Shown: positions 667-33,627 of the stretch, piece by piece
How positions within the stretch are numbered: the first letter of the stretch is position 1
Layout of the letters: each line of letters opens with the position of its first letter
Assembly: GCA_022708505.1 (NCBI GenBank)
Contig: JAKIYP010000018.1
Location: 1 to 35,598, forward strand
From: Bacteroidota bacterium
GTDB lineage: Bacteria; Bacteroidota; Bacteroidia; Bacteroidales; Paludibacteraceae
Reading direction: 5' to 3'
DNA: 35,598 bases
Program-made: the position numbers and the translations under genes
The notes under the pieces: generated by a model
Told to the model about the DNA's origin: nothing
Seen by the model: the letters and a program-made list of their open reading frames with translations, nothing else
Databases searched by the model: none

Positions 667-867
667 ATGAACAGAATTAAAGAAGTATTAGAAGAGAAAG
701 GGATAAAACAGATATGGTTATCTGAAAAACTTGGGAAGAGTTACAACATGGTGAACTCTTACGTGCAAAATAGACAACAGCCAAGATTAGAAGTGCTTTT
801 TGAAATTGCAAAAATTCTCGATGTTGACCCCAAAGAATTAATTAAAACAGAGGAAAGTAAAAAATGA
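667..867 (+). CDS. XRE/Cro-type helix-turn-helix regulator
   Basis: This 66-residue protein is a single Cro/CI-type helix-turn-helix domain. The helix-turn-helix lies at about residues 13-40 ([20 protein letters not shown]), followed by the family's [13 protein letters not shown] and DPKEL segments. Small proteins of this size are typical controllers of restriction-modification and toxin loci, where they bind the promoter of their own operon and delay or tune nuclease expression. The stop codon overlaps the start of the helicase gene (ATGA at 864-867), so the two are probably translationally coupled. The AT-rich composition matches the rest of the island. The regulatory role is inferred from context; the fold assignment is firm. 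Confidence 0.88.
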
Positions 868-3800
868 TTTTAGATAACGAGAACGAAAATAAAAAAGTCC
901 ATGAATGGATTTCTCAATATACAGAAGCAGGTAAGCTGGATATTGTAACAGGCTATTTTACCATTGGAGCATTGGCATTTTTATCCAGACAGACGAATGA
1001 AAAAATAAGTGATTTCCGTTTAGTATTAGGTGATATTGTAAATGTTGACATTGAGGACAATAGACCATTAGATTTATTGAATGAAAATATTAGTATTGAA
1101 GCATCTTTAAAACTCAGTAGTGTTGCACAAGAAGCCGTAAATTTTCTGAAACAGGATAAAGTCATTGCCAAAACACTTGAACCTAATTTCTGTCATGCAA
1201 AAAGTTATTTGTTTAATCCGGCTGAAAATGATGATAGAAAGAAATACTTCATATCGGGTAGTTCAAATCTAACAGAAGCTGGAATTGGATTAAAAACAAC
1301 AAATAATGTTGAATTAAATATTGCTGAAACCGGGAACAATAACCAATACAAAGAACTTGCAAGTTGGTTTGAGAACCTTTGGATTAAACCGCAAGCTCAT
1401 AAGGATAAGACAATTATTCGCACTGATGGAACCCGAACTAAGATTGATTTTAAGGAATACCTGATTCACGAAATAGAGCAAATATTTATCAAGTACACGC
1501 CAAGAGAGATTTATTTCAAAATACTATTTGAACTTTTCGGTTCTCAGCTTATTGAGCAAGAAAACGACCCTGATTTTAGCAGACAGGTTGGTCGTTTGGA
1601 AAATAGTGTAATTTATAATGCGTTATATGACTTCCAGAAGAAAGGCGTATTAAGTTTAATCCGTATGCTTCAAAAATACAATGGAGCTATATTGGCTGAT
1701 GCTGTTGGTTTGGGGAAAACATGGAGCGCTTTGGCTGTCATGAAGTTCTTTCAGTTGCAAGGGCGCGAAGTTTTGTTGCTTTGTCCAAAGAAACTTGAAA
1801 ACAACTGGAAAAGGTATAGAAAAAATCAGGAGTCAAAATTCGAGAAAGACCAGTTTGATTTCTTTGTTCGTTTCCATACCGATATGATTGAAGAACGACT
1901 TGAAAAATATGATGACCGGGCGGATAAGTATTTCAACAACGATAAACCCAAGCTTATTGTGATTGATGAAAGTCATAATTTAAGAAATGATAAGTCGAAT
2001 GGTTACAAGTTTTTATTAGAACGTATTCTAAAACCAAACGAAGATATTAAAGTACTGTTGCTTTCAGCTACACCAATTAATAATTCTCTGAATGACATTC
2101 GTAACCAGTTTAAATTAATGGTTCAGGGCGATGTGCAGGGATATCATGAAAAATTGGGTGTTAGAAATATTGAATATACCTTCCGTACGGCTCAAAAAGC
2201 TTTTAACGAGTGGAGAGAGGACGATAAACCCAAAATAAGCGAGTTTATAAAAAAACTACCTGCGAATTTCTTCACACTAACTGATTCATTGACGGTTGCC
2301 CGTACCCGTGATATGATTAACGGGCACCAGAAGGAACTAATTTTCCCTCGTAAGGAAAAACCAATAAATCTTTTTGTTACTCCTCATGAAATTGGGAATT
2401 TTGAAACATTTGAAGAATTATTTGACCATTTCCCACCTATGCTATCGGGTTATCAGCCTTCGTTTTATGTAGACATAAATGAAAAGGAGAAAAATGTTTT
2501 GCATGATGAAAGGCAGCGTGATCGTTTTCTTGTTAAGATGATGTACATTTTAATGGTTAAACGTTTAGAATCATCGTGGTACTCGTTTTATTCTACCATT
2601 GAAAAGATCAAGAACCACCATCAAAACGCGTTGGATAAAATTAAAAATTACCTTGAAAATAAGCAAAATCAAACAGTTGATGAAATAGATAACAACCAAT
2701 TTGAAGAAGATGAGTTAGAAGAACAATACGAAGAGTTTACATTAGGCAAAAAACGTAAAATAAGCCTCTCTGAAATTGATGCAGCAGGTAATATCGAAAA
2801 CTTCAAAAAGGATTTAAAGAAAGATTTGGATGCGTTGGATAACCTCTATATTAATCTTCAAAAATTTGAGACGCGTGTTAAAAAGGAAATTGACAAACCA
2901 AACAATATAAATTCAATTGATAATAAACTTGAGGAGCTAATCAAACAAATTCAATCCAAACGTTTAAAAGGGGATAATGCAAACAATCAGAAGGTTGTTG
3001 TTTTTACTGTATATCGGGATACTGCCAAATACCTTTTTGACCAGTTAAAAGCAAGGGGATTTAATAACCTTGCCATGGTTTCGGGCTCAGGGTCATTAAC
3101 TTCTGATTCGAATGAAGAAACTAAAAACTTTGAATCAATACTTGAACGCTTTGCACCATTTACGAAACTTTACAAGGAAAAAGAGTGGGATTTCGAGCCT
3201 GGAAAGCATAAAGCAAATGCATATCACGAATGGGTTAAATGGATAGCTGAAAACCATCCCAAAACTCATCAGAAATTACAAAACCCTATTGATATTTTAA
3301 TTGCAACCGATGCATTAAGTGAAGGTCAAAACTTACAGGATGCTGATATGGTGATTAATTATGACATCCACTGGAATCCTGTACGAATTATTCAACGATT
3401 GGGTCGTATCGACCGCTTAGGATCGCCAAACGAGAAGATTTTCGGTATCAACTTCTGGCCTTCAAAAAACATAAACAATTACCTTGATTTACAGGGACGC
3501 ATAGAGCAACGAATGGCTGCGATGAAACTGGCAGGTGCAGAAGTGAACCTTGAATTCTCAGATAGCTTCAAAGAAATGGCTGAGGATGAGAGTCTTGAAA
3601 ATCGTTTGAAAGCCCGGATGATGGAGCAAATGCAAACTTCCTGGGATGATATTGAAGTGAGCGACCAGGGACTTGGCTTTGACGATTTATCGCTCGAAAA
3701 ATACCGACAAGATTTATTTGAGGAGTTCAATAAAGACAAAGCAAAATACCAACGCATGCCCAAAGGGGTGTATTCAGGCTTCAAGTCTGATATAAATATT

Positions 3801-4250
3801 TGTTCAAAAGACGGTATTATTGCGCTTTTAGGTTATCCTTCGAAACCGGAAAAACATCGTGAACATATTTACAAAGTGTTTGATTTAATCTACATCGATT
3901 ATAAAGGGGATATGGTTTTGCTGAACCAAAAAGAGGTTTTGGATGCAATTACCTATCACAAAGACAGGGAGCGTTTTGTTCTCGATGCCATTGATAAAGG
4001 CGACGAATCGGCAATACAAGAATTAGTAAATGCACTGAAAAATTATTTGGATAGTCAGGCAACCGAAACCGAAGTACAAGCTGATGGCACGGTAAAAAAA
4101 TCAATGGGCAAAGAAGCCAAAGACGTTTTGGACAAACTCCGTAAAGGCGATAAAGGAGCATTGGCACGCGTGAAACAAAACGTGAAGGTTGATGAAAAAT
4201 ATCAACTCGACAGTTTTGATTTAATAGCCTGGCTGTTGGTATCAGTTTAA
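864..4250 (+). CDS. PLD-nuclease/SNF2-like helicase fusion, restriction subunit
   Basis: This 1128-residue protein has two parts. The N-terminal ~200 residues carry a phospholipase-D-type motif: H111-x-K113, then GSSN at 132-135, as in PLD nucleases such as BfiI. The rest is a superfamily 2 helicase: motif I GLGKT 282-286, motif II DESH 368-371, motif III LLLSATP, a motif V-like segment [12 protein letters not shown], and motif [10 protein letters not shown] 844-851. A long charged, lysine/glutamate-rich insertion sits between the two RecA lobes, and about 270 residues follow motif VI. The likely role is ATP-driven translocation on DNA coupled to cleavage of unmodified invader DNA, like an HsdR subunit with a PLD in place of a PD-(D/E)XK nuclease. 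It starts inside the stop codon of the regulator gene. DrmD-like DISARM helicases are the closest comparison I can name. Activity is inferred from motifs. Confidence 0.88.
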
Positions 4251-4319
4251 CTATGGCGATTTTGCCCGATTTTAACACATCTGGTTCAATAATTTTCAGA
4301 AAAATATTACGTTCAACTT

Positions 4320-5135
4320 ATGGCAAAAAATAAAACAATAAATATTGATGGCACTGAGATTTCAATTATAGGTCAGGAACAGCACGACTATATTTCGCTT
4401 ACCGATATGGCCCGAAGTCAATTTCAAGATGTTGTTATCATAAAATGGCTAAGCTTAAAAAGCACAATTGAATATCTTGGGGAATGGGAAGCCTTATACA
4501 ACCCGGATTTTAATTATACCGAATTCGGTACAATTAAAAATGCATCCGGAAGTAATAACTTTGTTTTATCTGTAAAAAACTGGATCGATGCGACCAATGC
4601 CATCGGGATCTTCGCGAAAGCAGGGAGATATGGTGGTACTTATGCACACAAAGACATAGCTTTTCAATTTGGAATGTGGATTAGCCCCAAATTTCAACTT
4701 TTGCTCATAAAAGAATATCAACGCCTCAAAGAGGAAGAGAACAACCGCCAAAAACTCGATTGGAACCTGCAACGCACCCTTGCCAAAGTCAATTATACAA
4801 TTCATACCGATGCCATTAAGGAAAGATTGATTCCTGAAAGACTTACCTCAAAACAAACTTCCATAATTTATGCTTCCGAAGCGGATTTGTTAAATATGGC
4901 GCTTTTTGGTAAAACAGCTTTCGATTGGCGGACTGAAAATCCGGATGCAAAAGGAAATATCAGGGATGATGCTACACTTGAGCAACTCGTTGTACTCTCT
5001 AATCTTGAAAGTATCAATGCCGTGCTGATACGACAGGGATTAAACCAGCCTGAAAGACTTGCTCAACTGAACCAAATTGCCATTGCACAAATGACTTCTT
5101 TGGTCAATAACACGAACATAAAAAAATTGAAATAA
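4320..5135 (+). CDS. KilA-N domain protein
   Basis: This 271-residue protein has a KilA-N DNA-binding domain at about residues 20-140. It is recognised by the entry segment YISLTDMAR at 24-32 and the closing block YAHKDIAFQFGMWISPKF at 108-125. KilA-N domains occur in phage antirepressors and in Bacteroidota restriction-modification loci, where they are often inserted between subunit genes. The C-terminal half (about 140-271) is helical, without motifs I recognise. The gene lies 69 bases after the helicase, and its stop codon directly abuts the ATG of the methyltransferase gene, so co-translation is likely. It could be an accessory specificity factor, a phage-sensing component or a passenger; the sequence does not decide this. 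Confidence 0.85.
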   Translation: MAKNKTINIDGTEISIIGQEQHDYISLTDMARSQFQDVVIIKWLSLKSTIEYLGEWEALYNPDFNYTEFGTIKNASGSNNFVLSVKNWIDATNAIGIFAKAGRYGGTYAHKDIAFQFGMWISPKFQLLLIKEYQRLKEEENNRQKLDWNLQRTLAKVNYTIHTDAIKERLIPERLTSKQTSIIYASEADLLNMALFGKTAFDWRTENPDAKGNIRDDATLEQLVVLSNLESINAVLIRQGLNQPERLAQLNQIAIAQMTSLVNNTNIKKLK

Positions 5136-8100
5136 ATGGATTTAAAAAAGTTCAAAGAAGCTCGATTTCTGGAGGCTATCAAAGCATTATTCGAAGGATT
5201 ACAAGTCCCTGTAAACTATGTTACCGATGAACCTACAACGGCAAAGGAAATTTTAAAAGATACCTACAAAGAAAACAGTACGTTTCAACTCGTAAACGAA
5301 GTGTATTTCGTGGGGATGGTTGACGATGCTGCTTTTGAAGGCAACAAAAGTATTGCTGTGGACAACATAAAATCGGATTACGATGGTATTCTGATTTTTG
5401 GCATAACCCTCAACCAACGTGAAAACAACTTGTTACCAACCCGTTCGCAATTGGCTGAAATTTCGAGGGCATTTAACCGGGAGTTTTATTATACGCCCGT
5501 TGTATTGGTTTTTAAATATGCTGATAATAATAAACAATACATTGCATTTGCCAATACCGAACGCCTGCAATACAAACAAGCATGGCGTGAAGGCGAAAAA
5601 GCAGGTAAGGTGTCGTTGTTGCGTGATATTGATTTTGAAAAGCCTCACCGTGGACACGAAGATATTATTAATCAACTCCGTATTCAAACTTCGGGTGTAA
5701 AAGCTATTGATTCTTTTGCTAAACTATATGCGTATTGGCAGGAAGTTTTTAGTGTGAGCGTTCTCAATAAGCGTTTTTATCAGGAACTTTCGAACTGGTA
5801 TTTTTGGGCGGTTAAGCAGGTTACTTTCCCGGGAAAACCGACCGAAGCCGATGCTATAAAGAAGAATGCCAAATTGGAGGATTTGATTCAGGAACACAAT
5901 GCCACCAATGTAATTCGACTACTTACCCGATTGTTATTTACCTGGTTTATCAAAGAAAAGAAACTGATTCCCGAAGAGCTTTTCGACCTTGATGCGCTGC
6001 AAAAGGATATTTTGAACGAAATTGCACCCTATCACGAAAACGGCTTGTTTATTCAGGCAAATAAGGAAAGTATCTATTACAGGGCAATCCTCCAAAACTT
6101 GTTTTTTGCTTCGCTTAACTGCCCAATAAAACCTGACGGAGCCGACTCCCGCGAACGTGGTTTCCGTGGCGATGGTTATGGCACACACCGAGGCATTGAT
6201 TATTTGATGCGTTACAAACGCTATTTTAAAAATCCGGATGCTTTTCTGGAACTAATGAACCAAACTGTTCCGTTCTTAAATGGGGGATTGTTTGAATGTC
6301 TGGACGATAAATTTAACAATACATATATTGATGGTTTCTCCGATAACATGACAAAAGGGGAACAATTGATTGTTCCCGATTACCTGTTTTTTGGTACGCA
6401 TGAAGAAGTTGATTTAAGCGCCGAATACGGGGTTAATAATAACACGACTAAGCGAGCTGCTGTAAAAGGATTGATCAATATTCTAAAATCGTACAAGTTT
6501 ACCATTACCGAAAATACCCCAATTGAAGAAGACGTTGCGCTCGATCCAGAATTGTTGGGTAAAGTATTCGAAAACCTGTTGGCAAGTTACAATCACGAAA
6601 CCAAAACAACAGCCCGCAAGCAAACAGGCTCGTTTTATACTCCCCGTGAGATTGTAAATTACATGGTGGACGAAAGCCTGATTGCTTACCTGAAAAATGC
6701 CGTAACCGATTGGGAAATGGACGAAAAGCAGGTGGATGAGAAGCTGCACCAACTGGCTTCGTTCGATGCCAAAAACCCATTTGCCGAAAACCAAAAACTT
6801 ACACGCGACATTGTTGCAGCCCTTGACCGCTGTAAAATACTCGACCCTGCTTGCGGTTCGGGTGCTTTCCCCATGGGTGTGTTGCAAAAGATGGTGCACA
6901 TGCTGCAAAAACTCGACCCCGACAACCTGATTTGGAAAGAGGTACAAGTACAAAAAGTGCAGGAAGAAACCAGCGAAGTGTTTAAAACAATTGAAGACAA
7001 AGGCGAACGGGAGGAAAAACTGAAAGAGATTAACAATGCTTTCGACAAACGGGTTAACGACCCTGATTATGCCCGTAAACTTTACCTGATTGAAAATTGC
7101 ATTTATGGCGTGGATATTCAACCTATCGCCACGCAAATTTCAAAATTGCGTTTCTTTATATCATTGGTAGTCGACCAAAAAAGTAATACGAAGGTCGATG
7201 AGAATTTTGGTGTTCGGACATTGCCAAATCTTGAAACCAAATTTGTGACTGCCAATACGTTGATAGGAATTGAAAAGCCAGATGCTCAGCTTAGTTTATA
7301 TGATACCAAAGAAGTTAAAGAATTAGAAACAGAACTGAAAAAAGTACGGCATAAGCTGTTTAGTGCCCGTACCAAAGACACTAAACTAAAATACCGCCAA
7401 CGTGATGAAGAATTGCGGAATGCTATTGCGGAAGAATTGGAAAGCAACGGCTGGAAGAGCGATACTGCTCAAAAATTAGCGAAATGGGATCCGTATGACC
7501 AAAACGCTTCTTCACCTTTTTTTGACCCGGAATGGATGTTTGATATTGCTGATGGATTTGATGTGGTGATTGGAAATCCACCATATAAAATAGTTAAATC
7601 AACAAATACTGAAAAATCTGTTTTGAAGGAGTATCTAAAGTACTATACGGCAGATTTTAAAGTAAATCTTTATGCTCTTTTTTTAGAGAGATCTTTAACC
7701 CTAGGTAAGAATTCCACTTCAATTCACAACTATATTATTCCAGACACATCTTTGAACTTACCTGCATTCAAGAAATTGAGAGACTTATTGGCCTTAAAGA
7801 ATAGGCTTTTAAGAATTTCCTACTATGATGAGAGAGTTTTCGAAAATGCAGAAGTTGGTAAGTCTATAATATTGAATTACCAAAAAGATAAATCTTTAAG
7901 TAAGATTGAATTCTTTCACTTTACCTCAATTGAAAAAGTTAAGAAAACAACTCTTGATATTGATAAAATTAAAAGTGATTCAGAATTACGACTAGTATTA
8001 AAAGAGAGTAATACATCAAATATGGCATTTGAAATGATAAATTCAATTAAAACTAAAATAAGTAATTTCTGTGACGTATATGATGGAATAAACCCTGGTA

Positions 8101-8915
8101 GCAAGGAATTGAAGGATGTGTTTATTAATACCCAAAAATTAACTCACTCAAAAAAAGTAATTGACGGAAAAGATTTTAATAAATTCACTCCAATTGAATG
8201 GTCTGGAATTTATGTTCAATACGATGAAAACTTAGTCGAATTAGAAAGAAATAAATTAAAGAAAATAGGTAAACCCTTTACCGCAAGAATAATCAAAAAG
8301 ACTAATTTTTTCGAAAAAAACAAAGTAATAACACGTCAAACTTCCGATACAATCATTGCGACTTTAGATGAAGTTGGTTATTATACTAAAAATAGTGTTC
8401 ATTCAACCTTGATAAAGAAGGAATACAAAAATATTCTTTCTCTTAAAATTATTTGTTCACTATATAATTCAAAGCTGATTGATTGGTTTTATAGGACAAA
8501 ATCAATGGAATCTGGGAGACTCTTTCCTCAAGTGAAAATTGAAAGACTCAATGATTTACCTGTACCAAACAAGGAAATACTATTAAATAAAAAATTAGTG
8601 CTAGAGCTATTGTGCTCGTTTTTACAATATAAATACTCCTTAAAATTACAAGAAGTTTTAGATGCAGTTGTTTTCAACCTTTACTTCCCCGACCACATGC
8701 AAGAACGTGAAATAGACGTACTTCAATTTGTAGAGCGAGATATAGAAAAAGTAATGCAAGGCAGGGAGTTTGAAAAACTAAGCGATACCGAAAAAGAACA
8801 CGTAATTGAGCAATTGCACCAAACCTGGAGTCACCCCGATAGTGAGGTTCGCAACCGCATAAAACTGTTTGCTGTTCGTAGCCCTGAGATTCTTAAACCT
8901 ATTTTGGAGAGCTAA
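5136..8915 (+). CDS. Eco57I-like N6-adenine DNA methyltransferase with target-recognition region
   Basis: This 1259-residue protein is a gamma-class type adenine methyltransferase. Motif I is DPACGSG at 570-576 and the catalytic motif IV is NPPY at 814-817; [13 protein letters not shown] lies just before motif I. About 530 residues precede the methyltransferase core, with no clear PD-(D/E)XK signature, so this is not an obvious single-chain type IIG enzyme. Residues from about 820 to 1170 should form the target-recognition domain, followed by a conserved C-terminal tail ([19 protein letters not shown]). The role is presumably to mark host DNA and supply sequence specificity to the PLD helicase. 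No separate HsdS is present. The target-recognition stretch is much more AT-rich than the core, suggesting exchange by recombination. PglX (BREX) and DrmMI (DISARM) are related in type. The start directly follows the KilA-N stop codon. Confidence 0.9.
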
Positions 8916-8918
8916 GTC

Positions 8919-10646
8919 ATGAAAAGAATTAAAGAAATACAGGTTAAGAATTTCAAGGCGTTTCAGGAAGAACAATCATTTAAAATAAATGGTAAGAATG
9001 TCTTGGTTTATGGAAACAATGGCTCAGGTAAATCATCATTGTTCTGGGCATTATATACCCTTTTGCAAAGTAGTACAAAAGACGATGCAGGTGTTCAGAA
9101 ATACTTTAAAAAGTATGTAGATTCCGATATTTCCACACACCAAACCCTTAGAAATGTATTTGTTGACGAAAACGAAGATTCTTATATAAAACTAACTGCG
9201 CTTGATACTGAAACAGGTAGGGAAGATATTTACACCATTTCTCACGATATCATCAATACCAATAATGATGGTGATACACTAATTCAGGAATTAAACCTTA
9301 CAAGCGATTTTATCAACTACAAATTGTTACACAATTTCTATCGTGCTTCGCATAAACAAGAAGTAAACTTGTGGCCTGTTTTTGAGCATGATATTTTTCC
9401 ATTCTTAACCGAAGGAACTCAAAACTGGTTAGAGGATATAATCAAAAGCAAAACACGGGATGTTCCCCGTACACCCAAAGGAGCAGTTGCTAGCAGAGGA
9501 CGTAGAGAAAGATACGAGCAGGAAATTACGGACTTAAATACAAAAGTTCAAAATCTATTAACTGAAATTCAGGACAATGCAAATACTTTTATAAAAAGCC
9601 ACTTCTTTAACGGTAAAGATGTAATCCGCATTAAATTGGATTTTTCAGGCAAGTTTAAGTTTACTGACATTCGGGAAAAACTATGGGAAGATAAAAAAGA
9701 AGGACTTCGCCACGATAAACTAAGAATAAAACTTACAGTTGAAGTATTTGATGAAACTTGCACATCAAACTGGCGAAAAATTGAACGTGTTCAATCATTC
9801 CTGAACGAGGCACATTTAACCCGAATTGCAATCGGAATCAGGATTGGTGCATTACGGACAAGACCTTTGGCAAGTGCAAGGTTTAAAATCCTAGTATTGG
9901 ATGATATGCTTATTAGCCTTGACCTATCAAACAGAATGGACGTTGTAAGAATAATTCTGAACAAGGAAAACAAACCCGATTTGATTTTTTTTGATGACTT
10001 CCAGAAAATAGTTCTTACCCACGACAAAGGATTTTTTAATCTTATCAGACGAAACACCGATGAAGAGCAATGGGTATACTACAATTTCACTAAAGACGAG
10101 AGTGATAATTCTGCTCCAAAAATCAAAGAAGATTTAACGCCACTTCAAAAAGCGGTAAAGAATTTTGAGGAAAACGAGTTCGAGAATTGTGGAAATGAAT
10201 TAAGAAAGGAGGCAGAAGCTGTCTTATCTGCTTTTCTTGACCCAACTATGAAGAACCTTAACAAGGATTTTGAAAGTTTAAGCGAAAAATTAGAAAAAGC
10301 TTTTAATATAGTTTCTGGTCAACGACTTCAAAAATTCAAACAGGTATTTCTTTCTGATTTTGAAATAAATAAACTCAGAAAAATAAAGACCGATTATCAT
10401 TCTGATTCCACTATTGCACAAGCTGAAAAGGACAAATTAGACAGGATGAAAACCAAACTGTTCGATTTTCTGATTGAGTTTAACGAAAAAGGTAATCGAA
10501 AAGAACTGTTAATCAAGGATACGAAAGAAATTCTGGACAGAGTAATGAATGCGGCTTCTCATCATGGAGAAAATCCACTATACAGTCATGAATTGAAAGA
10601 TGCGATAGAAAAGATTAAGAACTTAAAAGATTATTTGAATGAGTAA
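8919..10646 (+). CDS. SMC/RecF-like AAA ATPase, operon partner
   Basis: This 575-residue protein opens with IKEIQVKNFKAF, the N-terminal strand pattern of SMC/RecF/ABC-type ATPases, and has a Walker A GNNGSGKS at 32-39. A Walker B with the typical acidic pair is at LVLDD 325-329 and is followed by ISLD. A histidine switch-like LTHDKGFF lies further on. Only a short coiled-coil-like segment (about 190-230) separates the two halves, so it is a compact member without the long SMC arms. The C-terminal ~180 residues are helical and end in a conserved-looking ASHHGENPLY segment. It begins 3 bases after the methyltransferase stop. Similar ATPases (RloA-like) occur inside type I restriction loci as accessory genes. 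The function is unknown; sensing or abortive infection is possible. Confidence 0.82.
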   Translation: MKRIKEIQVKNFKAFQEEQSFKINGKNVLVYGNNGSGKSSLFWALYTLLQSSTKDDAGVQKYFKKYVDSDISTHQTLRNVFVDENEDSYIKLTALDTETGREDIYTISHDIINTNNDGDTLIQELNLTSDFINYKLLHNFYRASHKQEVNLWPVFEHDIFPFLTEGTQNWLEDIIKSKTRDVPRTPKGAVASRGRRERYEQEITDLNTKVQNLLTEIQDNANTFIKSHFFNGKDVIRIKLDFSGKFKFTDIREKLWEDKKEGLRHDKLRIKLTVEVFDETCTSNWRKIERVQSFLNEAHLTRIAIGIRIGALRTRPLASARFKILVLDDMLISLDLSNRMDVVRIILNKENKPDLIFFDDFQKIVLTHDKGFFNLIRRNTDEEQWVYYNFTKDESDNSAPKIKEDLTPLQKAVKNFEENEFENCGNELRKEAEAVLSAFLDPTMKNLNKDFESLSEKLEKAFNIVSGQRLQKFKQVFLSDFEINKLRKIKTDYHSDSTIAQAEKDKLDRMKTKLFDFLIEFNEKGNRKELLIKDTKEILDRVMNAASHHGENPLYSHELKDAIEKIKNLKDYLNE

Positions 10647-31411: not shown

Positions 31412-32035
31412 ATGATAGAAAGTTTAAAATGGCGCTATGCCACCAAGAAATTTGATAAAAACAAACAGGTATCAGCCGAAAATATACAATTGCTGAAAGA
31501 AGCTGTACGCCTGACAGCCTCTTCTTATGGTTTACAACCTTATAAGGTGCTTGAAATAAAGAATCCTGAAATCAGGGAGCAATTAAAAACAGCCTCGTTC
31601 GGACAGCCACAAGTCACCGATGCTTCAACTTTATTCGTGTTTTGTGCCAACGACGATTTAACCGATGCGCATATCGATGCTTATCTGGAGCTTTCAGCCA
31701 AAACCCAACAGATCGACGTTGCAGGACTCAAAGGTTATGGTGATTTTATGAAAGGAGTGTTCGGTAGCCGTACTACGGCCGACAAACACGAGTGGGCAGC
31801 CCGTCAGGCCTATATCGCGCTCGGGAATCTGCTTACCACAGCCGCATCCATGCAGATTGATGTATGTCCGATGGAGGGCTTCGATGCTCAACAATACAAT
31901 GAGATACTCGGATTGAAAGGCAGCGGATATTCATCAGTGGTAATTGCTGCCATCGGATACCGCTCTGCTGATGATGAAGCGCAAAACAAAGCCAAAGTGA
32001 GAAGGCCCCTGGACGAGTTGTTTGAAACCAGATAA
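31412..32035 (+). CDS. NAD(P)H-dependent nitroreductase-family oxidoreductase
   Basis: This 207-residue protein belongs to the FMN-dependent NfsB-like nitroreductase family. Visible motifs are the N-terminal WRYATKKFD, the FMN-contacting LTASSYGLQPYKVLEI, AYIALGNLLTTAASMQIDVCPMEGFD in the middle, and AAIGYRSADDEAQNKAKVRRPLDELF at the end. It likely reduces quinones or nitro compounds with NAD(P)H in the cytosol; the native substrate is unknown. It has its own promoter-like box and an intrinsic terminator 36 bases after its stop. Confidence 0.92.
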   Translation: MIESLKWRYATKKFDKNKQVSAENIQLLKEAVRLTASSYGLQPYKVLEIKNPEIREQLKTASFGQPQVTDASTLFVFCANDDLTDAHIDAYLELSAKTQQIDVAGLKGYGDFMKGVFGSRTTADKHEWAARQAYIALGNLLTTAASMQIDVCPMEGFDAQQYNEILGLKGSGYSSVVIAAIGYRSADDEAQNKAKVRRPLDELFETR

Positions 32036-32166: not shown

Positions 32167-33627
32167 CTATGCTTTTTGAGGAATATTGGCAAGCGTAGCA
32201 ACCAGATAATCCCAGAATCTCTGAACACTCTCAATGTGAACTTTTTCATCCGGAGAGTGAGGGTATCGAATCGTCGGACCAAACGAAATCATATCCATTG
32301 CCGGGTAATTGATACCCAGAATTCCGCATTCCAATCCTGCATGAATAATCATGATTTTCGGTGTCTTGCCGTATTTGTCTTCATACACCTTAGTCATTTC
32401 TTTCAGGATAGGCGATTGCAGGTTGGGTTTCCATCCAGGGTAATCACCACCCAGTTCCACACGGGCGCCTGCCAGCGCGAATGTGCTAACCACCATAGAG
32501 GCCAGTTCCTGTTTCCTCGATTCAACGGAGCTTCGAATCAAACATTTACAGTCAATTCTCTTTCCATCAGATTTTACAATGGCTAAATTGTTGGAAGTTT
32601 CCACAACTGAAGGCAGCTCGGGAATAATACGAAAAACGCCATTGGGACATGCGGTTACACCGTTGATCAAGTCATCCTGAATTTCTTCTGGAATTAATCC
32701 GGAAGGAATATCTGTAATTTCAGCATTTAACCGGATGTTATCTTCGACCCCCTCATATTCTTCTTTGAATAAGATCTCAAAGTTGGCAACTAAATTTTTC
32801 ATGTCCTCCATGCCGTCTTTTGGGACGGTAACAACGGCAAAAGCTTCTCTGGGAATGGCATTGCGGAGGCTGCCGCCATCAATTGATGCCAGGCGGGCTT
32901 CGTATTCACTTACTGCTTCTTTTAACAACCGGAACATCAGCTTATTGGCATTGGCACGTTGAAGGTGTATGTCAACTCCCGAATGACCGCCTTTTAAGCC
33001 CGTCAGCGAAATTTTCAATGCCACATCCCCATCAGGAACAGCTACTTCTCTGTAAGCGTATTCAATATTTGCGTCAATGCCACCAGCACAACCCACATAC
33101 AATTCACCTTCATCTTCCGAGTCCATATTAATTAATATCTCACCACGGAGAAAATCCGGTTGCAATCCGAACGCACCATGCATGCCGGTTTCTTCGTCTA
33201 CTGTGATAAACATTTCGATATCCGGATGTGGAATGTCTGTTGATTCGAGAATGGCCATAGCAGCTGCCACGCCAATTCCATTGTCGGCACCAAGTGTGGT
33301 GTCTTTAGCTGTAACCCACTCACCTTCCACATAAGCCAGAATCGGGTCTGTTTCGAAATCATGTTGTATACCTGAGTTTTTCTGAGGTACCATGTCCATG
33401 TGGGCTTGCAAAACAACTGCTTTCCGGTTCTCCATTCCTTTGGTTGCGGGTTTGCGGACCAATATATTTCCAATCTCATCCTTGATTGTCTCTAATCCAA
33501 GTGATCTGCCGAAGTCTTCCAGGAATTTTCCGATAAGTTCTTTCTTCCCTGAGGGTCTTGGTATTTGGGTTAAACTAAAAAAATGTTGCCACAGGGCAGT
33601 TGGTTGTAGTTTTTTGATGTCGTTCAT
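32167..33627 (-). CDS. pepD: aminoacyl-histidine dipeptidase (M20, PepD)
   Basis: This 486-residue protein is a cytosolic M20-family metallopeptidase that cleaves Xaa-His and other dipeptides. The metal-binding and catalytic residues are visible: VVLQAHMDMV with His76/Asp78, TLGADNGIGVA with bridging Asp115, and TVDEETGMHGA with Glu145/Glu146. HAGLECGILG lies near the C-terminus with a further metal histidine. The central lid/dimerisation region (LKGGHSGVDIHLQRANA) is typical of PepD. The length equals the family norm. It is a single gene with convergent and divergent neighbours. Confidence 0.95.
   Translation of the reverse strand: MNDIKKLQPTALWQHFFSLTQIPRPSGKKELIGKFLEDFGRSLGLETIKDEIGNILVRKPATKGMENRKAVVLQAHMDMVPQKNSGIQHDFETDPILAYVEGEWVTAKDTTLGADNGIGVAAAMAILESTDIPHPDIEMFITVDEETGMHGAFGLQPDFLRGEILINMDSEDEGELYVGCAGGIDANIEYAYREVAVPDGDVALKISLTGLKGGHSGVDIHLQRANANKLMFRLLKEAVSEYEARLASIDGGSLRNAIPREAFAVVTVPKDGMEDMKNLVANFEILFKEEYEGVEDNIRLNAEITDIPSGLIPEEIQDDLINGVTACPNGVFRIIPELPSVVETSNNLAIVKSDGKRIDCKCLIRSSVESRKQELASMVVSTFALAGARVELGGDYPGWKPNLQSPILKEMTKVYEDKYGKTPKIMIIHAGLECGILGINYPAMDMISFGPTIRYPHSPDEKVHIESVQRFWDYLVATLANIPQKA

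Follow-up and report, generated by a model that had tools for sequence, protein, structure and literature searches.

A recurring helicase, methyltransferase and ATPase gene set from a Bacteroidota bacterium, predicted to form a split restriction-modification system

We analysed the whole of a 35,598-nucleotide contig (hereafter the window; GenBank assembly GCA_022708505.1, contig JAKIYP010000018.1) from a Bacteroidota bacterium of the family Paludibacteraceae, in which positions 667-10646 hold an operon built on a recurring unit of three genes, encoding in this order an HKD(PLD)-SNF2 helicase, an Eco57I-type adenine methyltransferase and an ABC/SMC-like ATPase. We predict with high confidence that the operon is a restriction-modification (R-M) system, and regard it as fairly probable that it is a split, ATP-dependent one furnished with a fallback ribonuclease (RNase) of the PrrC/RloC kind. 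This agrees with the original prediction, made from the window's letters, of a restriction-type system with redistributed functions, in which the nuclease would likely be the HKD domain of the helicase and specificity would reside inside the methyltransferase.

Five open reading frames (ORFs), all open and all on the forward strand, follow one another in the order, at the coordinates and with the intergenic distances first described (-4, 69, 0 and 3 bases). An XRE/HTH_3 regulator of 66 residues (667..867; Pfam HTH_3) overlaps by 4 bases the start of the 1128-residue helicase (864..4250), the proposed motor and nuclease subunit. Then come a 271-residue KilA-N protein (4320..5135; Pfam KilA-N, 72.3 bits; PADLOC candidate PDC-S22, 428.8 bits), the 1259-residue gamma-class methyltransferase with its apparent built-in target-recognition domain (TRD) (5136..8915; Pfam Eco57I and TaqI_C) and the 575-residue ATPase (8919..10646; Pfam AAA_23).

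The evidence for a three-gene unit comes from 42 loci, one of which (L145) has no ATPase by profile, leaving 41 ATPase loci. The order helicase, methyltransferase, ATPase is found in 25 of these 41. In 39 the ATPase is preceded on its own strand by a methyltransferase, or a piece thereof, at most 21 bases away in 36. Because L019 and L048 come from one contig, and the ATPases of L143 and L144 are identical, the distinct loci number 39, of which 24 have the order and 37 the upstream methyltransferase. The methyltransferase stands farther upstream, with other ORFs between, in L022, L024 and L056, and the two loci without it are L009, with just 2 bases of upstream sequence, and L058, with ATPase fragments only. 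In most other loci without the full order the upstream sequence runs out early, whereas L026 and L028 have only a methyltransferase fragment despite ample upstream sequence, and in L025 a piece of the helicase lies at another place. The helicase, methyltransferase and ATPase are thus conserved, and KilA-N, found between helicase and methyltransferase as in the window in only four of the 42 loci (L008, L010, L011 and L142), is poorly conserved. The five-gene unit originally proposed is therefore rejected, with KilA-N an optional passenger outside the core.

Searching GTDB contigs with the ATPase yielded 21 loci. According to database records, the trio is present in Bacteroidota and Proteobacteria, that is, in at least two phyla, and it also occurs in a Prevotella record, in which the ATPase is 29% identical. 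Counting the source genome, the ATPase was detected in 14 of 395 genomes of the phylum (E <= 1e-20) and in 2 of 60 relatives; it was not detected in any of the genus's other 35 genomes. Such a patchy distribution resembles that of a mobile trait. Three plasmid records carry the ATPase and four loci are on viral contigs (L145 among them); no phage record with the ATPase was found. In L050 (3072-13768) a gene for a phage major head protein is found two genes away from the trio, which for this reason is probably prophage-borne.

Catalytic residues were checked in a wide set of chosen members, not in all loci: 16 helicases, 16 methyltransferases and 18 ATPase C-termini. The helicase set omits loci without a full helicase, the methyltransferase set omits L023, L028, L055, L058, L059 and others, and the ATPase set omits L024, L025, L058, L059, L060 and most other close relatives, which are those in alignment A1 (20 rows).

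The helicase matches Pfam Helicase_C and SNF2, and at residues 98-173 PLDc_2, with 26.7 bits, just under the Pfam cut-off of 27. Its HKD nuclease motif (1194..1268, forward strand) consists of H111xK113 (1194-1202) and GSSN at residues 132-135 (1257-1268), positions exactly as originally given. Both elements, together with E150, do not vary across the 12 helicases aligned, and the HKD residues are present in all 16 members of the wider set. The pattern also recurs in six of seven plasmid loci that have no ATPase, the seventh reading HSK...GSSN. Judged from these residues, the HKD domain is the likely nuclease of the system. The helicase does not always travel at the pace of the ATPase: at L019 the ATPase is 68% identical to that of the window and the helicase just 34%, and the PADLOC 'HKD+Snf2' model C3a139 gives the L019 helicase 420.6 bits, versus 230.9 for ours. 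We also observed, on a Planktothrix plasmid (L029, 12001-17583), a helicase 69% identical to that of the window beside a methyltransferase that stops at 711 residues, without the recognition domain.

For the methyltransferase, Pfam returns Eco57I (95.0 bits) and TaqI_C (67.9 bits). Motifs I-IV span 6843..7586 on the forward strand, from DPACGSG (6843-6863) to NPPY (7575-7586), and NPPY is retained in 16 of 16 chosen sequences. Among the 14 methyltransferases of alignment A2, the window included, mean pairwise identity is 0.20 at residues 818-1185, compared with 0.63 (residues 1-480), 0.69 (481-817) and 0.63 (1186-1259) elsewhere in the protein. This hypervariable stretch (7587..8690, forward strand), with a TaqI_C match at 1007-1143, has a GC content of 28.1%, the lowest of the measured operon pieces, the highest being 40.6% in the part of the methyltransferase before it. 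The methyltransferase is thus, by these sequence features, one that carries its own TRD, as had been proposed.

The N-terminal part of the methyltransferase (about residues 1-130; 5136..5525, forward strand) occupies the position that the nuclease has in type IIG enzymes. At the aligned position where L014, L050, L056, L057 and L060 have E-x-K, the window reads T-L-N, and E-x-K is seen in one of the 14 sequences of A2. The N-terminal part may be a decayed nuclease, with the homology of the two clades drawn from alignment and motif only, and the window methyltransferase probably needs an external nuclease.

Specificity may be switchable in some relatives. A Prevotella nigrescens plasmid (L066) carries the helicase and methyltransferase genes followed by two inverted methyltransferase pieces and an Mpi-family invertase; a 47-base, 96% inverted repeat, whose translation by eye ends in GNPPY, links the methyltransferase gene to one inverted piece. 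In the Lactococcus plasmid pJM1F (L061), helicase and methyltransferase are accompanied by an inverted spare TaqI_C piece, an Mpi invertase and a 321-base, 71% inverted repeat. Both arrangements, neither of which includes the ATPase, would fit a specificity domain switched by inversion. At L066 (7767-15900), a gene for an ATP-binding protein lies between the inverted recognition pieces.

The third component has a clear ATPase head, in keeping with its first description as a compact SMC-like ATPase, and what that description overlooked is a probable C-terminal HEPN ribonuclease domain. Walker A and Walker B (9012..9905, forward strand) read GNNGSGKSS (9012-9038) and LVLDD (9891-9905), and a Foldseek search with the AlphaFold model (mean predicted local distance difference test score 78.8) recovered SMC, Rad50 and RecF heads, with a best E of 6.7e-10 for SMC/Rad50 heads. 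About 170 residues follow the head. In the window this domain (residues 404-575; 10128..10643, forward strand) has the pattern R429-x3-E433...N544-x2-S547-H548; the R, E, N and H are present in 18 of 18 chosen C-termini, and so resemble an active site, and the S in 17. RloC is described as having Arg-x3-Glu-x36-52-His, often with Ser before the His and with every residue of the triad needed for activity (PMC2610378), and most RloC-like proteins found in the phylum read RR[IL][IL]E...GSH or YSH.

Profile comparisons point, though weakly, in the same direction. In a Pfam scan of 13 C-termini (11 divergent ones with the shorter domain, L004 and L025), the commonest families were DUF4145 (four members, best E 1.1e-4) and HEPN (three, best 0.011), which are both assigned to the HEPN superfamily (PMC3710099); ten of the 13 reversed as controls gave no HEPN family. 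With PADLOC, single members of these 13 matched each of four families, CARF-HEPN, Csx1/Csm6, RmrT and Cas11a. With hhalign, the DUF4145 set was matched over 89 columns at Prob 49, with R..E on R..E and N..H on N..H, and the HEPN set over 41 columns at Prob 50. Reversed targets stayed at or below 0.2 and a reversed query at or below 0.84, and the DUF4145 and HEPN sets, both built from genomes, matched each other at 34.

Several observations weigh against this reading. A Pfam scan of 18 C-termini, from the window's clade and two others, was led by MnmE_helical (5 of 18), with HEPN families at one member each, and the window's own sequence matched none of these. A Foldseek search with the domain model gave nothing under E 0.001 (best 0.68) among the matches listed, the best 50 of 188, in which HEPN 1o3u had the highest probability, 0.72. 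With the C-terminal domains of the window's clade a profile search of the PDB reached a best E of 0.46, and with the other C-terminal set it ranked FliS first (E 0.005). By hhalign, profiles of that clade align worse (Prob 13.7 with HEPN, 2.3 with DUF4145), the HEPN alignment ends short of the histidine, and the match to the RloC-like set is at control level (Prob 0.43), although the RloC-like set fails against HEPN too. In the window's clade the domain contains about 55 additional residues, and this clade alone showed the Arg that belongs to the classical Rx4-6H motif. We nevertheless hold a HEPN fold to be probable, with a confidence slightly lowered by the window-clade scan led by MnmE_helical and its lack of a HEPN match for the window; that the ATPase-HEPN protein is an active fallback RNase we favour with more reserve.

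Taken together, the families and catalytic residues suggest the following mechanism. The methyltransferase would recognise a short DNA site through its own C-terminal domain and methylate adenine in the host DNA. At unmethylated sites it would hand over to the HKD-SNF2 helicase, which would move along DNA using ATP and cut it with the HKD domain. The Rad50/SMC-type ATPase with its HEPN domain would act like PrrC or RloC, staying silent while the DNA-cutting complex works and, when the complex is blocked or the DNA damaged, cutting cellular RNA, perhaps tRNA, so that the infection is stopped. The XRE protein probably controls expression of the operon, and KilA-N would be an optional extra. A more far-reaching version, which we offer tentatively and think rather doubtful, is that a single recognition protein steers both the cutting of DNA by HKD-SNF2 and that of RNA by ABC-HEPN, with ABC-HEPN as a standing core subunit, recognition domains that can be swapped, and an ancestral methyltransferase nuclease that decayed once the motor carried its own. 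Two points count against the first of these mechanisms: the nuclease ancestry of the methyltransferase N-terminal part is read from alignment and motif only, and the ATPase is missing from all seven plasmid loci with helicase and methyltransferase that we chose from 41 plasmid records with a methyltransferase match. Because of this absence, helicase and methyltransferase can evidently stand without the ATPase; in four of these loci (L062, L063, L064 and L067) the methyltransferase comes first, with other genes between.

The alternative that survives best, which we judge possible yet clearly less probable than the fallback RNase, makes the ATPase, like the ABC ATPases of CxC/DndD systems or BrxC, a core working part: it would scan DNA or clamp it and give the licence for methylation or cutting, the HEPN-like domain merely binding RNA or protein. 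The constancy of the upstream methyltransferase (39 of 41 loci), whereas passengers vary, and the unambiguous Rad50/SMC head speak for it, as does the co-occurrence of an HKD and SF2 helicase with an ABC ATPase described for CxC/PbeABCD systems (PMC10853773); the active-site-like conservation of the C-terminal residues and the seven plasmid loci without the ATPase speak against it. We consider it unlikely that the operon works like BREX or DISARM, with methylation as a self mark and phage DNA kept out or stalled with no cut made by the helicase. DrmD does match the helicase (136.9 bits), and PglX models weakly match the methyltransferase (36.6 and 35.2 bits), but these scores are far below the NCBIfam cut-offs (610, and 400 and 900), no gene for DrmA, DrmB or PglZ was observed within the operon, and the HKD residues are kept in all 16 chosen helicases. 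Still less credence attaches to a type IIG enzyme that restricts and modifies alone, beside two unrelated neighbours. The top PADLOC match of the methyltransferase is REase_MTase_IIG (198.3 bits), and a protein of Lactococcus pLd8 is type IIG according to REBASE, as cited in PMC6098607; yet at the aligned place E-x-K is missing from 13 of the 14 A2 sequences, the window's among them, and helicase and methyltransferase share one locus across bacteria and in an archaeon. A non-defence or decayed system is the least probable of all, for although the ATPase is split into two ORFs in L006, L010, L024, L025, L058, L059 and L060, in the window all five ORFs are open, catalytic residues persist despite low identity, and the genes are found near a phage head gene and on plasmids.

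Passengers other than KilA-N occupy the same slot elsewhere: YhcG/DUF1016 in L007 and L052 and Schlafen-AlbA in L027. In L011 a PD-(D/E)XK protein follows KilA-N within that slot, and in L022 the next slot holds Fic. ABC-HEPN proteins are described from R-M operons that also carry RhuM-like or Fic/Doc genes (PMC3710099), a picture with which Fic in L022, and perhaps KilA-N, agrees.

XRE relatives precede the helicase in L008, L011, L012, L013, L014 and L021; no operator common to all seven upstream stretches was apparent by eye, promoter and terminator scans did no better than shuffles, and Rfam reported nothing in the window. The operon is AT-rich, as first noted, with a GC content of 36.0% (667-10646) versus 43.8% on the downstream side (10720-35598). 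The scanned flanking proteins are mostly housekeeping-like by Pfam (rRNA dimethylase, CorA, aminotransferase, sigma-54, RF-1 and others), and neither HsdS nor PglZ families were found among the 21 scanned, a set that leaves out other flanking ORFs such as 31412-32035. ARAGORN calls a tRNA-Leu at 32250-32341 on the reverse strand, within an M20 peptidase ORF, which is probably false because Rfam reports no tRNA there at gathering score. The window is the entire contig of a 75% complete assembly, and 666 bases precede the XRE gene; near the contig start a short sequence forms an inverted pair (60-120 and 269-299) and has 19 matches in its own genome, several of them similar inverted pairs about 180-210 bases apart. 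The repeat is REPIN- or MITE-like, and the contig break there is a possible consequence.

No direct match of the whole operon or of its three-gene form to a named system was found with the profiles of PADLOC 2023, with which the operon proteins were scanned, or of NCBIfam, and searches of open-licence literature (which does not include bioRxiv) turned up no name for the three-gene form. The helicase and methyltransferase pair was already known in 2018 (PMC6098607), and an ABC-HEPN fallback in restriction operons in 2013 (PMC3710099). What is probably new here is the recurring helicase, methyltransferase and ATPase trio, with an ATPase ending in a likely HEPN ribonuclease domain that resembles RloC. 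The locus, in which the best profile matches of the methyltransferase are to 'type IIG', thereby becomes a testable three-part system with a putative DNA cutter, a putative RNA cutter and a proposed switch between them; apparently invertible recognition pieces occur in some relatives that lack the ATPase.

Compared with known systems, the operon misses a defining feature of each of types I, ISP and IIG, DISARM, BREX, Hma/BR and Pbe, and the statement that it is not a textbook type I, ISP, BREX or DISARM system stands. The gene list of DISARM includes DrmA, DrmB and DrmD, and that of BREX PglZ, BrxC and PglX. We reject DISARM on the DrmD score and because no full DrmA or DrmB match was found among the five proteins (the DrmA match to the helicase, 71.8 bits, has its best stretch within the helicase part), and BREX on the PglX scores and for want of a PglZ match in the scanned proteins. 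Type I R-M is rejected since HsdS is absent from the operon and from the 21 scanned flanking proteins and the TRD lies inside the methyltransferase. Class I DISARM does share an SNF2 helicase, a PLD domain and a IIG-like methyltransferase (PMC6098607), whereas our operon is without DrmA or DrmB. In type ISP enzymes (LlaGI, LlaBIII), nuclease, ATP-driven motor, gamma-methyltransferase and TRD are described as working together (PMC3874165), but these form a single polypeptide with an Mrr-like nuclease; here they are separate proteins with an HKD nuclease and an added ATPase-HEPN, and type ISP is rejected. Type IIG enzymes such as Eco57I share the order of N-terminal domain, gamma-methyltransferase and TRD in one protein (PMC3874165), and are rejected as the family, by motif only, since the catalytic E-x-K is not seen in the window. 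The DUF499-centred BREX-related type 2 and Hma systems likewise combine a helicase (HKD-fused in type 2), a methyltransferase and an ATPase (PMC12839542, PMC8565338), and HmaA matches our helicase with 66.1 bits; their ATPase, however, is a DUF499 AAA+ protein, and DUF499 is not among the five P-loop families matched by ours, so that Hma/BR type 2 is rejected. CxC-DndE/PbeABCD systems share the HKD and SF2 helicase, the ABC ATPase and sometimes methyltransferases, and differ, as described, in having DndE, a Zn-hook ATPase and cytosine methyltransferases (PMC10853773). Membership fails because, within the operon, intergenic distances no longer than 69 bases could not accommodate DndE, and our ATPase (P0004), unlike theirs, has no CxxC.

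Related HKD-SNF2 helicases (27-32% identity) keep other partners on plasmids: in L030, L031 and L032, from an enterococcus, an archaeon and Acinetobacter, they occur with DUF4391, a DNA methyltransferase and a DEAD/DEAH helicase, the last two perhaps type III Mod/Res, and in L033 DUF4391 is seen before the sequence ends. A literature search found no paper on DUF4391 with a helicase and methyltransferase. The L030 stretch carries annotated resistance genes, and the source genome itself has, on another contig (C13), a second HKD-SNF2 helicase, cut by the contig end, beside a DUF4391 protein (L034, 6902-9667). Likened by description, orf33/orf34 of Lactococcus lactis pLd8, a 'putative type II' system of 2018, place a PLD-SNF2 helicase beside a TaqI_C-bearing N6-adenine methyltransferase for which no nuclease domain was detected; its authors already proposed the PLD domain as the possible nuclease, and their description of the locus reports no ATPase-HEPN (PMC6098607). 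With PrrC, found with EcoprrI, and RloC, our ATPase shares a Rad50-like ABC head and linkage to restriction genes (PMC3710099), and it resembles them in its probable C-terminal HEPN domain and in an R-x3-E...(S)H pattern. It differs in a partner that is not type I, in having no CxxC and in an E-to-H spacing of 56-65 or 114-116 residues against 36-52 in RloC, and sequence homology to PrrC/RloC was not detected, with no AAA_13 (PF13166) match besides the control-level hhalign result. PrrC with EcoprrI is the classical restriction system guarded by an RNase; given another design, with a less complex recognition protein, the guard principle could be examined outside the type I context.

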